Origin: Thermoguttaceae bacterium
Lineage (GTDB): Bacteria > Planctomycetota > Planctomycetia > Pirellulales > Thermoguttaceae
Length of the DNA: 64,000 nucleotides
Direction: 5' to 3'
Assembly (NCBI GenBank): GCA_017447865.1
Contig: JAFSMO010000046.1
Coordinates: 62,001-126,000, forward strand
The notes below the pieces were generated by a model. It saw only the letters and a program-made list of their open reading frames with translations. It did no database searches and had not been told where the DNA came from. Position numbers and translations under genes: made by a program. Shown here one piece after another: positions 18,110-24,046 of this stretch. Every line of letters begins with the position of its first letter. The stretch's first letter is position 1.

Positions 18110-19258
18110 ATGGCAGAAAATCTTCCCGGAAATGTGAAGGTCGTTGAGGCCGGTGGTCAGAAAGACCGGATGATGGATCCGCGAATGTGGAACGGTATGC
18201 GTCTCCCCCCCTTTATGAAACTCCTCGCCCGTAACGGGTTTCTGATCAATCCCATCCGCTGGCCAATGGCCGCAATCAACATTTTTGCGGGCTGCGTCTG
18301 CTCGACCTTGACCTTTAGCCAGCACCTTCAGCTCGGTTCTGCCGTTGAAAAGACGGAGATTCAAAAGGATCCCATTTTCATCGTGGGCCACTGGCGTTCC
18401 GGAACCACCATGCTTCACGAGATTCTGATGCGTGACCCGCAATTCTCGTGTCCATATACTTTCGCGTGCTTTGCCCCTGATTTCTTTTTGACCTCGCGCA
18501 AGCTCATCACGTCGATTCTTCGCCTGCCGGAAAAGCGCCCGATGGATAATATGGCGTTCGGGTGGGACACGCCGCAGGAGGATGAATTCGCACTGCTCGC
18601 GATGGGGCTTCCGTCGCCGTACGTTCACCTCGCGTTTCCGAACAATATGAAGTGGAAAGGGCGTCAGGAGCGGATCCTGGACTGCCTCGACCTGAACCTC
18701 ACCGAAAAAGAACTGGCGAAGTGGAAGAACGGTCTGATCTGGTTCATTAAGGCGCTGACTTATCACGACGGCCGCCAGTTGGTCATGAAGTCTCCGACGC
18801 ATACGGCCCGGGTGGGGATCCTGCGCGAAATGTTCCCGAACGCGAAGTTCATCCACATTTCACGCAGTCCGTACACGCTGTACGCTTCGACGATCAACCT
18901 CTGGAAGCGCTTCCTCGCCCGCGACGCGTTCCAGTTCTCGAACGGCGCGTACCTGGAGGAACTGGTTTTCATGTCGCTCATCCGCATGTACGAGGCGTAT
19001 TTCCGCGACACGCAGAACATTCCGGCCGAAAACCTGATCGAGATCCGCTACGAGGACCTCTGCGCCGACAAAGTGGGCACGATGGAAAAGGTTTACGCCC
19101 AGTTGAACCTCGGAGATTTCGAGAAAATGCGCCCGGGTCTGGAACGGTACGCCGAGGAGCACAAAAACTACAAAAAGAACAAATTCGAGATCGACGACGA
19201 ACTGCGCGCCCGCATTTCGGAGCGGTGGAAACTTTACATCGACCGGTTTGGTGAATGA
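18110..19258 (+). CDS. Sulfotransferase-family protein
   Basis: A 382-residue protein with PAPS-dependent sulfotransferase motifs. The 5'-phosphosulfate loop is FIVGHWRSGTTMLHEIL (about residues 89-105). The 3'-phosphate-binding part is KSPTHTARVGILREMFPNAKFIHISRSPYTLYAS, with the conserved Arg-Ser pair. It resembles the Sulfotransfer_3 group. The acceptor (glycan, lipid or peptide) is not evident. There is one hydrophobic stretch near residue 55 and no clean signal peptide. It is followed after 26 bp by mqnE, probably in the same transcript. Confidence 0.85.
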   Translation: MAENLPGNVKVVEAGGQKDRMMDPRMWNGMRLPPFMKLLARNGFLINPIRWPMAAINIFAGCVCSTLTFSQHLQLGSAVEKTEIQKDPIFIVGHWRSGTTMLHEILMRDPQFSCPYTFACFAPDFFLTSRKLITSILRLPEKRPMDNMAFGWDTPQEDEFALLAMGLPSPYVHLAFPNNMKWKGRQERILDCLDLNLTEKELAKWKNGLIWFIKALTYHDGRQLVMKSPTHTARVGILREMFPNAKFIHISRSPYTLYASTINLWKRFLARDAFQFSNGAYLEELVFMSLIRMYEAYFRDTQNIPAENLIEIRYEDLCADKVGTMEKVYAQLNLGDFEKMRPGLERYAEEHKNYKKNKFEIDDELRARISERWKLYIDRFGE

Positions 19259-19284
19259 GTCCGGGGCTTGACGCGGTTTGAACC

Positions 19285-20352
19285 ATGAACATTTTGAACT
19301 TCCAGCAGTCCCTCGACCTTTTCGACCGGGAGAAAACTCCGCTTCACGATCTTGGGATCCGGGCGGACGAACTGCGTCAGGAAAAGTGCGGCAATACGGT
19401 CTTCTTCAACGTGAACGCCCACATTAATCCGACGAACGTCTGCCAGTACCGCTGCGCTCTTTGCGCGTTCAGCACGGACCCCGGCACGCCCCGCGCCTAC
19501 CGGATGAGCATGGACGAAATTCTCGCCAAAGCGCAGGAAGCGGCCGACGCGCGCTGCTCGGAGCTGCACATCGTCAGCGGCGTGGACCCGGAACTCCCGT
19601 ACGAGTGGTACGTGGATCTGGTCCGGACGATCCATCAGGCGTTCCCCCAGCTCGAGATCAAGGCCTTCACGGCCGTGGAGATCGCGTGGATGGCGGAGAT
19701 CAGCGGGAAATCTTTCTCGGACGTTCTGACCGACCTGCGTCTTGCCGGGCTTCTGACCCTTCCCGGCGGCGGGGCGGAAATTCTGGTCGATGACGTGCGC
19801 AGGATCATCTGTAAAAAGAAGCCCATGACCGAAACGTGGCTGGAGGTGCATCGCACGGCGCACCGTCTGGGGATCCCCTCGACTGCCACGATCCTGTACG
19901 GCCACATCGAAACGATGGCGCAGCGGGTCGAGCACCTGATGAAACTCCGCGCGCTTCAGGACGAGACGGGCGGCTTTATGGCGCTCATCCCGCTCGCGTT
20001 TCATCCCGGCCGCACGCCGCTTCTGGAGCTTGGGACCGTTTCGGACCGCAAAACGACGGCGGAAGACGATTTGCGGATGATCGCCGCCGCGCGTCTGATC
20101 CTGCATAATTTCCCGCACATCAAGGCGTACTGGATCTCGCTGGGGATCCAGACCGCGCAGATCGCGCTGGCGTACGGGGCGAGCGACCTGGACGGGACGG
20201 TGCGTCAGGAAAAGGTCCACCACGACGCGGGTTCGCAGGCGCCGGAGTGCCTGAGCGTGGAAGAAATTCAGCGCCTGATCCGCGAGGCTGGCCGCGTCCC
20301 GGTGGAAAGAGATTCGATCTACCGGCCCAGAGGCGCGGAGAGTTTTGGTTAA
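19285..20352 (+). CDS. mqnE: Aminofutalosine synthase, radical SAM
   Basis: A 355-residue radical SAM enzyme of the MqnE/MqnC/CofH group. The 4Fe-4S motif is CX3CX2C at Cys53, Cys57 and Cys60, within INPTNVCQYRCALCAF. That motif context, and the LPGGGAEIL and GFMALIPLAFHP segments, favour MqnE, which adds the 3-enolpyruvylbenzoate derivative to SAM in the futalosine route to menaquinone. CofH is excluded only by context. Its stop codon (20350-20352) coincides with the outer end of the SUMF1 cassette's left inverted repeat. Confidence 0.85.
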   Translation: MNILNFQQSLDLFDREKTPLHDLGIRADELRQEKCGNTVFFNVNAHINPTNVCQYRCALCAFSTDPGTPRAYRMSMDEILAKAQEAADARCSELHIVSGVDPELPYEWYVDLVRTIHQAFPQLEIKAFTAVEIAWMAEISGKSFSDVLTDLRLAGLLTLPGGGAEILVDDVRRIICKKKPMTETWLEVHRTAHRLGIPSTATILYGHIETMAQRVEHLMKLRALQDETGGFMALIPLAFHPGRTPLLELGTVSDRKTTAEDDLRMIAAARLILHNFPHIKAYWISLGIQTAQIALAYGASDLDGTVRQEKVHHDAGSQAPECLSVEEIQRLIREAGRVPVERDSIYRPRGAESFG

Positions 20353-20446
20353 TACGGAGGGCCGGCGGCCCGCCGTCCGCGGCCGGCTCGGCCGCCCCCA
20401 ACCGCTTTAGCGGTTGAATGTTAATAGCCGTGGGTGAAACCCACGG
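20350..20446 (+). repeat. Left inverted repeat of the SUMF1 cassette
   Basis: It contains TACGGAGGGCCGGCG at its outer end and a GC-rich middle able to fold several ways. An 8-bp-stem hairpin lies at 20399-20416 and a second 8-bp-stem hairpin with GAA loop at 20428-20446. The last hairpin ends 3 bp before the SUMF1 stop codon. Confidence 0.85.
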
Positions 20447-20448
20447 AA

Positions 20449-21378
20449 TTATGAGGCATCTTGATTGGAAACTAAAACAGGACGAAAGCCAAGAATGGCG
20501 CTTTGGAGGTCAGGCGCACTCGAGCAGCGGCACGCCGACCGGCAACTCTCGGCGGGATAGAACCAGCAGCTGCCGCGAAACACTCGGAACCAGGACTCGG
20601 CGGTGTTTTCTGGGTCGCACTCTGGTGACTTGGCGTAAAATTCTTTATCATACCAATCTGCACACCATTCCCACACGTTACCGTGCATATCGTAAAAGCC
20701 CCAGGCGTTTGGCTTCTTCTGAGCTACTTCGTGGGTCGTGCCCCCTGAATTTTTTTCGTACCACGCCATCTCATCAAGGTCCCCGGCGTAATCGCTCGTG
20801 GTGCCCGCGCGGCAGGCGTATTCCCACTGCGCTTCCGTAGGAAGCAGGACTTGCTGGCCGAGTTTCTGACTTAATTTCAGACAGAATTCCTGGCACTCGT
20901 CCCAGTTCACATAATACATCGGATAATTCGGACCTTTCCCATACAGGGGCCAACTTTTGTCTGCCTTGTCCCGCTGCTGCTCTATTGACTGGCCCATCAC
21001 GCTCTGCCACATTGCCTGCGTGACTTGCGTTTCCAGCATCCAGAAGCCCTTCGTCAGCTTTACCTTGTGCAGAAGTTCATCCTGATTGATTAAATCCCGC
21101 TCTGTTTTGGTATCCGGTTTTCCGATGGCCCACTCGACCCAAGTTCGTTGGATTTTAACTTTCCGGGTTTCATATCTGGGTTCAGCCCCCATCATAAACT
21201 CGCCCGGCGGACACCAACGAAAGGCGTACTCTATCCCGTCCACCGTCAGAACCTTACGCTCACCCGCTTTTAACGATGGCGCTGGAAGTGCCGGTCCCAT
21301 AGTGTTTTGCGCCTCGCATGGGCATACAAAAGAGAGCAGCAAAAACACTAAAAAATAGGAAATCCCCACTTTTTTCAT
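20449..21378 (-). CDS. Exported SUMF1/formylglycine-generating-enzyme-like (C-type-lectin fold) protein
   Basis: A 309-residue protein with signal peptide (residues 1-23, MKKVGISYFLVFLLLSFVCPCEA). The FGE-sulfatase domain shows FRWCPPGEFMMG, LETQVTQAMWQSVMG, LPTEAQWEYACRAGT, DMHGNVWEWCADWY and a C-terminal GFRPV. The paired Cys of true formylglycine-generating enzymes are not in the right spacing, and no sulfatase is nearby, so ligand binding is as likely as catalysis. The last 40 residues have an atypical set of residues (C, F, Y, S, A, L, I) at positions usually Asn or Arg, as in retroelement-diversified proteins. The start at 21378 follows an AAGG site. Confidence 0.85.
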   Translation of the reverse strand: MKKVGISYFLVFLLLSFVCPCEAQNTMGPALPAPSLKAGERKVLTVDGIEYAFRWCPPGEFMMGAEPRYETRKVKIQRTWVEWAIGKPDTKTERDLINQDELLHKVKLTKGFWMLETQVTQAMWQSVMGQSIEQQRDKADKSWPLYGKGPNYPMYYVNWDECQEFCLKLSQKLGQQVLLPTEAQWEYACRAGTTSDYAGDLDEMAWYEKNSGGTTHEVAQKKPNAWGFYDMHGNVWEWCADWYDKEFYAKSPECDPENTAESWFRVFRGSCWFYPAESCRSACRCSSAPDLQSAILGFRPVLVSNQDAS

Positions 21379-21416
21379 GGGTTTGAGCCTTAAAATGAAA
21401 CGCGTGTCCCCGTAAT

Positions 21417-21503
21417 CCGTGGGTTTCACCCACGGCTATTAACATTCAACCGCTAAAGCGGTTGGTGCGGCTGGGCCGCACCGCCGTCCCTCCGTATTAA
21501 TTA
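21417..21503 (-). repeat. Right inverted repeat of the SUMF1 cassette
   Basis: This is the reverse-orientation partner of 20350-20446. Hairpins lie at 21417-21435 and 21447-21464, then a GC-rich stretch and CCTCCGTATTAATT at the outer end. The outer end overlaps the stop codon of the DUF1080 gene. The middle GC-rich part differs in sequence from the left copy. Confidence 0.85.
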
Positions 21504-22271
21504 TTTCTCCAGCGGCAGGATCGTGACGCGGCGGAATTCAAGACCCGCGTACTCGGATTGGATCTGGATCTTGCCCTTGGCCGGCTTTACGTTGTACGCC
21601 CGGTTCGCGACCACGCCGTTCACGATGTTCGTGATCGTGTCGCCGTCGCAGATGATCTCCAGCGTGTTCCACTCTCCGACCAGATTATCAAGGTCTTTCT
21701 CACCGCGGAAGCCCTTTTTGTCTTCCCAGTTCGGGTCGCGGCCCCACCAGTCGATGCGGCCGCCGTTGATCGTGTACGGCTTGCCGTTCGGGTCGTAGAT
21801 CCCGCAGTTGTGGCGGCTTTTCTCGTCTTTGATGTTGCACGTGATGGAGAATTCGTCCGTGTGATTCCCCACGACGATGAAGTCGCCGGTGCCGCCCTCG
21901 ATGATGTTGCACTCGATCGAGTACATCCAGGTCTTGCCCCAGGCGCCATCTTCGCCGACGGAGTGAACGAGGATCCCGCAGTCGCGTGTGTTGTTCTCGC
22001 GGGGAGGATTGGCCACGCCGGTGAAGCGGTACTCAACGATGAGGCGGTAGTTCTCGAACTCCTCGTTCGTCGTGATGCAGCCCATCTTCTCGCCGGAGAT
22101 GCAGATCTTGCCGTCTTTGACCGTGAAAACGCCGGTCGGGTCGTTATTCTTGCCCTGGCCCTGGACGAACGTGTACCAGTTGGTCAGGTCCTTGCCGTTG
22201 AACAGTTCGCGGGCCGAGGCGAAATTAAGCGCAAAAAACAGAATGGTCAGTGTGGTGATTAATCTTTTCAT
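21501..22271 (-). CDS. Exported DUF1080 (3-keto-disaccharide hydrolase domain) protein
   Basis: A 256-residue protein with a signal peptide (residues 1-20). One DUF1080 beta-sandwich domain fills the rest: ELFNGKDLTNWYTF at the start, GVFTVKDGKICISGEKMGCI, YRLIVEYRFTG, DCGILVHSVGEDG and the end GLEFRRVTILPLEK. The family resembles concanavalin-like lectins; some members hydrolyse 3-keto-glycosides. The substrate is unknown. It is last in the ribokinase-Maf-nucleoside hydrolase run (57-bp gap) and its stop codon touches the SUMF1 cassette. Confidence 0.88.
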   Translation of the reverse strand: MKRLITTLTILFFALNFASARELFNGKDLTNWYTFVQGQGKNNDPTGVFTVKDGKICISGEKMGCITTNEEFENYRLIVEYRFTGVANPPRENNTRDCGILVHSVGEDGAWGKTWMYSIECNIIEGGTGDFIVVGNHTDEFSITCNIKDEKSRHNCGIYDPNGKPYTINGGRIDWWGRDPNWEDKKGFRGEKDLDNLVGEWNTLEIICDGDTITNIVNGVVANRAYNVKPAKGKIQIQSEYAGLEFRRVTILPLEK

Positions 22272-22328
22272 GGGTCGAAATTTGAAAAAAAGGTTGGGGA
22301 GGCATGGGTTTCGGGCGAATAAAACGTT

Positions 22329-23408
22329 TTATTCAGTTTTCCCATGATTCATGATGAAAATGAGGTTCACGAACGCTTCCTGAACGCGGGCGTTCTGGAC
22401 CGGTGACGTCAGAAAAACGCGGTGCTTGCCGTTCTCGCACGGGGTGAATTTCGTCACGCCGTTTTCCAGGACCGTGACTTTTCCCGGCTCGGAAAGGGTG
22501 AAGTAGTCGCGCCCTTTTTCCGGACGCAGCACGAAAAGGACGCTCGTCAGGTCCCAGCACGGCCGCGCGTGCGTCGGCGGCATTTTGTTCGACGCGCACC
22601 ACGCGACGTACGAGTCCCAGAGGAAATTCGGCGACGGGTGGCTCAGGTCGTTTTCCAGCCCGCAGACCGAGAGGCGGATCGCGTCGCCGGTCTCGTAGCC
22701 GCTGAAAACGATCTCGCCGGGCCATTCGGCGCAGACTTTCTGCGCGGCGGGGAGGTCCATGATGATGTTATGCTCCCGGTGGGAAGCGTATTTCGGATCC
22801 TGGAACCCGAACGCGCCGCCCATGACGGAAAGAAGCCGGACCTTTTTTTCGGCCAGTTCCCGACCCGAAAGCGGGGAAATGTCGTCCGGGCCGGAGGCGA
22901 GCAGGGCCGCGGCGTTCGTGGACTCGCCGACCTGGATCCAGACGATGGAGTGGTCTTTCGCGTCTGCGAGGATCTTCCGCTGGAGGCGCAAAGTATTTTC
23001 GCACGTGTACGGCGTGACGGGGTAACGCGGCGTCCCGTCCGGGTTTTTCAGGGCCAAAGTCTGGTCCGAGTACGCCCCGCGGTTCGTGTTCAGCGGACAG
23101 TTGGCGTCCCAGCCGATCGGAACGTCGGGGTGGCCGAACGCGAGATTCTGCGCCCGAACGTAGTCGGCGGAGTTCCCCCGGCTGCGGGAGATCGTGACGG
23201 CCAGAAGGTCGCATTTCCCGCGGTCCGCCATCAGATGCAGGATCCCCAGCGCGAACGCATCGTCAATGTCCCCGCCGATGTCCGTGTCGAAAATCACCGG
23301 GACCGGCTCCGTGGCGGCGTCGCGCACATCGAGCAGGTCTTCCGCCTGAACGGGTACCAGGGCGGAAAAGGAAAGAAGCAAAGCGAAAATGAAAAGGAAG
23401 CGCGTCAT
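22329..23408 (-). CDS. Exported inosine-uridine nucleoside hydrolase family protein
   Basis: A 359-residue protein with signal peptide (residues 1-22), which is unusual for this mostly cytoplasmic family. The Ca2+-binding active-site motif is VIFDTDIGGDIDDA, with Asp41, Asp43 and the DIDD acidic set at 47-50. Family members hydrolyse nucleosides to base and ribose, and some act on other N-ribosides or sugars. The start at 23408 gives the signal peptide; an upstream extension exists but overlaps maf. Co-directional with maf and ribokinase, it suggests ribose release outside the cytoplasm and phosphorylation inside. Confidence 0.88.
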   Translation of the reverse strand: MTRFLFIFALLLSFSALVPVQAEDLLDVRDAATEPVPVIFDTDIGGDIDDAFALGILHLMADRGKCDLLAVTISRSRGNSADYVRAQNLAFGHPDVPIGWDANCPLNTNRGAYSDQTLALKNPDGTPRYPVTPYTCENTLRLQRKILADAKDHSIVWIQVGESTNAAALLASGPDDISPLSGRELAEKKVRLLSVMGGAFGFQDPKYASHREHNIIMDLPAAQKVCAEWPGEIVFSGYETGDAIRLSVCGLENDLSHPSPNFLWDSYVAWCASNKMPPTHARPCWDLTSVLFVLRPEKGRDYFTLSEPGKVTVLENGVTKFTPCENGKHRVFLTSPVQNARVQEAFVNLIFIMNHGKTE

Positions 23409-23434
23409 GGAATTTTTGGATCGTAAAAGGTGAA

Positions 23435-24046
23435 TTAAAGGTGGAACCAGCCCCCTTTGGGCTTCAAAAGTTCTTCCAGGCGTTCGATGGGAAGGCCCAC
23501 GACGTTGGACTCCGTGCCGGAGAGAATGTGGAGCCAGGCAATTCCGTCCTGGTAGCCAAACGCGCCGGCTTTGCCCTGCCACTGGTTCGAGTCGAGGTAC
23601 GCCTGCAGGTCTTCGTCCGAAAGCTGGTCCATCACGAGCCGCGTGACGACCGATTCCACGAGCGTCGCGTCCGGAAGTGCCGGGTTGAGGAGGCAAAGGC
23701 CCGAAATGACCTCGTGCTCACTGCCGGAAAGGAGGCGCAGCATCCGCTCAGCGTCCGCCCGGTCGGAGGGTTTTCCGAGGATCTCACCGGCACAAACCGC
23801 CACCGTGTCGCAGCCGATCACGACCAAGTCTTCCTCCGGGAAGCGCCGCGCCACGTTTTGGGCCTTGAGCAGCGCCTCACGGCTGACGTAATCGGCCGGA
23901 GACTTGAATTTTGCGGGGTCGTACGGCGTTTCGACGTTTCCATCGGCCGGAAGCACCTGAAAGCAAAATCCCGCCTGGGTCATTAACTCCCGCCGCCGCG
24001 GCGAGTTGCTTGCGAGGATGATTTTTCTGTTCTGGAATGGATTCAT
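23435..24046 (-). CDS. maf: Maf-family nucleoside triphosphate pyrophosphatase
   Basis: A 203-residue cytoplasmic enzyme that hydrolyses non-canonical nucleoside triphosphates (dTTP/UTP or m7GTP types). The N-terminal ASNSPRRRELM is the family signature. The acidic motif ILGKPSDRADAERML and SGSEHEVISG follow. Length fits the family. It lies 16 bp after ribokinase and 26 bp before the nucleoside hydrolase, so the three are very likely one operon. Confidence 0.93.
   Translation of the reverse strand: MNPFQNRKIILASNSPRRRELMTQAGFCFQVLPADGNVETPYDPAKFKSPADYVSREALLKAQNVARRFPEEDLVVIGCDTVAVCAGEILGKPSDRADAERMLRLLSGSEHEVISGLCLLNPALPDATLVESVVTRLVMDQLSDEDLQAYLDSNQWQGKAGAFGYQDGIAWLHILSGTESNVVGLPIERLEELLKPKGGWFHL

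Follow-up and report, generated by a model that had tools for sequence, protein, structure and literature searches.

REP, BIME, and REPIN sequences with RAYT (TnpA-REP) transposases, described in E. coli, Pseudomonas, and Stenotrophomonas (PMC2817692, PMC3116915, PMC8266576), are short, dispersed intergenic hairpins near gene 3′ ends and stop codons, with some copies in ORFs, and the REPtrons of these bacteria combine one cognate Y1 gene with copies clustered around it. From REP biochemistry (PMC8266576), the transposase is expected to cleave REP hairpins in single-stranded form and to mobilise them, and REPs of other bacteria have been found to hug 3′ ends, supply stop codons, and sit in ORFs (PMC3733652). 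Among the Y1 transposases, TnpA-Y1 subclass 1.2, whose signature is Y...Q..HH (Quentin et al. 2018, PMC6006769), occurs mostly in Bacteroidetes and Cyanobacteria and has been tabulated without REPs or IS-type hairpins. The IS200/IS605 elements share the Y1_Tnp catalytic family and carry hairpins near the gene, and MITEs and TIR-associated tyrosine transposase elements (PMC3733652) have inverted ends with no transposase inside.

The locus considered here lies in a 64-kb window (the whole stretch of DNA that was analysed) from a Thermoguttaceae bacterium, in which a SUMF1 gene (20449..21378, minus strand) stands between an MqnE/CofH-like radical SAM gene labelled mqnE (19285..20352, plus strand; Radical_SAM and CofH_C) and a gene for a DUF1080/3-keto-disaccharide hydrolase (21501..22271, minus strand). 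The 309-aa SUMF1 product has an FGE-sulfatase domain (Pfam, E 1.8e-38) and a signal-peptide-like start, and resembles a secreted enzyme. The gene is enclosed by inverted arms, as the sequence-only reading had reported: the inner parts (20398-20447 and 21416-21465) are 100% complementary over 50 nt at a spacing of 968 nt, and the outer parts (20349-20368 and 21481-21500), whose ends are TTAATACGGAGGG and CCCTCCGTATTAA, agree at 95% over 20 nt. The length of about 100 bp given there for both repeats applies to the left arm (20349 to about 20449, or 20349-20447; about 100 nt) and not to the inverted right arm (21416-21500; about 87 nt), which lacks part of the outer GC module.

The element copied in both arms has a GC-rich outer module of 46 nt followed by hairpin A, then AATGTTAATAG, then hairpin B. 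On the left, the outer module (20349..20397, plus strand) starts on the mqnE stop codon, contains two hairpins, and belongs to a dispersed repeat family (OUT). It is followed on the same strand by the REP core, composed of hairpin A (20399..20416), whose stem varies with compensation between copies, the conserved single-stranded stretch AATGTTAATAG (20417..20427), which fits a motif, RAATRTTnnTAG, found beside relatives of the Y1 gene, and the almost invariant hairpin B (20428..20446). The right core, on the minus strand, comprises hairpin B (21417..21435), AATGTTAATAG (21436..21446), and hairpin A (21447..21464), with the shortened outer module beyond it (21465..21500, minus strand). The hairpins CAACCGCTTTAGCGGTTG and CCGTGGGTGAAACCCACGG occur exactly once in each arm and nowhere else in the window, the chance expectation being 0.07 and 0.01 matches with up to three mismatches allowed, and the left arm folds as DNA into four clean hairpins (-36.4 kcal/mol, z -5.3). 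The left arm overlaps the TAA stop of mqnE (20350-20352) and the right arm lies directly next to the stop codon of DUF1080 (21501-21503); SUMF1, intact and ending 2 nt from the left hairpin B, is the sole gene between the arms, with no transposase there. On the repeats, the neighbouring stop codons, and the lack of a transposase, the initial description was accurate. No target duplication was found outside the arms.

The SUMF1 gene was also correctly described as less GC-rich (GC 0.526, GC3 0.60) than its neighbours (0.55-0.62 and 0.74-0.85). As a sign of a cassette this was rejected, because paralogues without repeats are likewise low (GC3 0.61-0.75) and lower GC is common to the SUMF1 family. 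The idea that flanking inverted repeats are a general SUMF1 trait was rejected as well: among 24 SUMF1 genes tested, only the window gene has them in its immediate flanks, a SUMF1 pair on contig C92 having them at a wider distance.

Across the genome (4.83 Mb, 110 contigs), about 26 core copies are present (25-26 when hairpin B or the spacer plus B is counted), and 15 copies match the 47-nt core with at most three mismatches. The outer module is also found alone, separately from the core; the arm thus combines two repeat families whose members often, though not always, occur together. About 11 copies are full-length composites, and the repeat occupies 46 places in all. In hairpin A, five of seven pairs have changed on both sides while 98.7% of cells remain paired, and covariation over the whole core is 0.203 compared with 0.087 in shuffled controls (0/500). 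The repeat is thus a short palindrome in many dispersed, mainly intergenic copies, as REPs are. The core was absent from 39 relatives, as REPs specific to one species would be, and no viral contigs with the repeat were found. Roughly half the copies of the core, and almost every copy of the outer module, are solitary intergenic insertions; the earlier view that the hairpins mark cassette boundaries therefore largely fails, by the very observation it had named as contrary to it. A different abundant repeat, TTCGGAGGGCCGGCGTCCCGCCGGTCAAGTTAA, forms close inverted pairs and a 127-nt tandem array (window:1167-1246; L092:1871-2379; L095:1698-1833).

A tendency to start on stop codons belongs to the outer module in general. 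Where the surroundings were readable (26 copies), the 3′ end of a gene lies on the outer side in 13, seven copies begin exactly on a stop codon, and five are inside ORFs. Because the habit belongs to the repeat, the stop-codon starts at the window locus are uninformative about SUMF1. One of the in-ORF copies (L222:3601-3643) lies within an uninterrupted 1664-aa HrpA-like helicase ORF (DUF3418), between the helicase and OB domains, and further such copies are present at L153, L225, and L227.

The genome contains a single Y1 transposase gene of this kind, on contig C70 (C70:193046-193507; Y1_Tnp E 3e-25), which is bordered by the same repeat, with ten copies of the core in a stretch of about 7 kb (C70:186817-193566). 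Its translation reads DHIH, WQ, and YVLNQEEHH, and the enzyme shares with TnpA-Y1 subclass 1.2 (PMC6006769) the Y...Q..HH signature, the DH[IV]H and WQ motifs, a length of about 150 aa (154 aa for the C70 enzyme, about 148 aa in the subclass), low copy number, and nearest kin in Bacteroidetes. The nearest 80 Y1 loci in public genomes (L248-L327), nearly all from Bacteroidetes and at best 57% identical, carry Y...Q..HH without exception (80/80). Reading the flanks of two of these relatives, one of which had a hairpin followed by AAATATTGGTAG, supplied a motif, hairpin plus RAATRTTnnTAG, with which all 80 loci were scanned, one mismatch being allowed and positions within 320 bp of the gene being counted as near. 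The scan returned 73 copies at most 320 bp from the gene, distributed over 45 of the 80 loci, corresponding to a density of 1.43 per kb near the gene versus 0.0096 far from it (149x) and to none in shuffled flanks; with the exact motif, the densities were 0.19 near and 0.004 per kb far. The copies face the gene in 62 cases and point outward in 11, with 40 plus and 4 minus upstream and 22 minus and 7 plus downstream. The Chryseobacterium form, hairpin-AACTGTTAATAG, is almost the same as GAATGTTAATAG of the window. This agreement in motif and in gene-side position identifies the window core as the REP of the TnpA-Y1 family with Y...Q..HH. Although the subclass has been published as lacking REPs and IS-type hairpins, REP-like hairpins adjoin its gene in this genome and, with RAATRTTnnTAG, at 45 of the 80 related loci. 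Among the 73 copies beside relatives, none showed a second hairpin immediately following TAG, and the double-hairpin core is accordingly a variant. ATAG or TTAG precedes hairpin B in this genome, and GGTAG or ATAG follows hairpin A in the relatives, a stretch that may correspond to the conserved guide tetranucleotide (GTAG type) beside REP hairpins.

Set against the known systems, the window arms are a REP pair of a known kind, the new features being the double-hairpin core and the outer module. The statement that no named element matches is therefore superseded, the repeat being a REP of a TnpA-Y1 REPtron. Unlike the REPs of RAYTs, the window repeat has two hairpins with a TAG stretch between them and an additional GC-rich outer module, and unlike REP doublets or REPINs, in which inverted REPs around a short loop form one unit, the two window copies are separated by 968 nt that hold a gene. 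True doublets of the same polarity, with loops of about 32 nt, do occur elsewhere in the genome (C70:186816 and C34:2117). Identity with IS200/IS605 was rejected, as a transposase between the ends is required and the window arms hold SUMF1 only; the REP is also far more numerous than the gene. In contrast to MITEs and TIR-associated tyrosine transposase elements, the arms also occur alone and in pieces, with no target duplication seen. An integron cassette would have directly oriented attC sites and an integrase, and was rejected on orientation, the window arms being inverted.

Facing copies enclose genes at two further places. On contig C92 (L096:1907-4174), two tandem SUMF1 genes lie between facing composite copies of the same polarity, whose arms share the A-stem subtype and linker; about 18 nt are missing from the right copy, some of hairpin B among them, and this copy does not follow a stop codon. 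Beside the Y1 transposase, at C70:190833-193567 (L041:12833-15567), facing triple REP arrays enclose an exonuclease gene with a BRCT domain and a gene for a 229-aa unknown protein. With a GC content of 32-36% versus 53-59% in the sampled loci of the genome, this pair is clearly foreign by composition; the unknown gene had no match in plasmids or phages and no PADLOC hit. Under random placement, two facing pairs among about 11 composites have a P of about 0.00015, and facing pairs among all 46 repeat places a P of about 0.02, both post hoc. Both facing composite pairs contain genes of the SUMF1 family, which numbers about 18 copies, and the statistic favours some link between pair and content. 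The three enclosed SUMF1 genes formed a clade in 0/200 bootstrap trees, and the window gene shares only about 64% identity with its nearest relative; these genes diverged long ago and do not represent one lineage.

The reading that we consider probable, with some reserve, is that the arms are REP copies placed at gene ends and that SUMF1 is resident or arrived separately, rather than having been carried. The spread of the REP is most likely due to one single-strand-DNA transposase in the same genome. A Y1 HuH transposase of the TnpA-Y1 subclass 1.2 type would cleave single-stranded DNA at the core, rejoin it, and so disperse copies, which would settle mainly at gene 3′ ends and often exactly on the stop codon, a settling habit that is observed. 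One copy would have settled after mqnE and another after DUF1080, leaving SUMF1 between them by position, and the two copies would face each other because mqnE and DUF1080 converge. The sequence-only reading had instead proposed a cassette moved in trans, in which the facing REPs would be ends recognised by the Y1 transposase and the cargo, SUMF1, would replace tnpA in a non-autonomous unit. The enclosure itself stands, an enzyme acting in trans is plausible given the one Y1 transposase bordered by the same repeats, and the REP of the relatives flanks the transposase gene facing inward (62 vs 11), a polarity that recurs around SUMF1, at the C92 pair, and at the low-GC pair on C70. Against carriage, most REPs bound nothing, the SUMF1 genes found inside repeats do not group as a clade, facing repeats frame just 2 of the roughly 18 SUMF1 loci in the genome, and no second copy of the window SUMF1 with the same arms was found. 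Nor was an empty site found among the congeners, where gene order is strongly scrambled: homologues of mqnE, DUF1080, and the C92 sialidase exist there, but their neighbours are not shared, and maf, which adjoins mqnE directly in five of the six congeners examined (L085-L090), is separated from mqnE and inverted in the window genome (window 18110-24046). With gene order varying across the genus, no comparable empty site is available, and we regard the cassette as a tentative and on balance unlikely explanation.

SUMF1 could also have been inserted, by ordinary recombination, into a REP doublet (REPIN) that already lay between the converging mqnE and DUF1080, landing in its loop. Without SUMF1, the arms would touch both stop codons, which is the usual place of REPs between converging genes (PMC3733652), and the true doublets mentioned above have the same polarity; a composite doublet with an empty loop was not found in the genome, however, and an indel distinguishes the outer halves of the arms, which leaves this course of events improbable. 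The resemblance of the outer ends TTAATACGGAGGG and CCCTCCGTATTAA to terminal inverted repeats might suggest a DDE insertion sequence or MITE with no connection to the Y1 system, an origin that we judge very improbable given that the outer module and core also occur separately, that the core fits the Y1 REP motif, and that target duplication is lacking outside the arms. SUMF1-fold proteins are known targets of diversity-generating retroelements (DGRs), and the hairpin after the SUMF1 stop codon would suit a variable end of this kind, but a reverse transcriptase match is absent from the 92%-complete assembly, and in place of a template-like near copy of the SUMF1 3′ end there are only paralogues at 67-75%, so that a DGR target seems scarcely credible. 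Two congeners (L168/G003 and L169/G004) have reverse transcriptases of about 350 aa, absent from the window genome, which, in view of the many SUMF1 genes, might belong to a DGR or a retron.

Placement of REP copies at gene ends thus remains our preferred account of the arms. The recognition of a REP class for a Y1 subclass listed as being without REPs makes the substrate of these enzymes testable. A bolder proposal, which we hold to be doubtful, is that TnpA-Y1 subclass 1.2 has its own REP class whose facing pairs serve as cassette ends, moving SUMF1 genes or foreign low-GC pairs in trans as single-stranded REP-gene-REP units. If facing REPs could move together with a gene between them, bacteria would possess a minimal means of transferring genes in trans, invisible to annotation pipelines.
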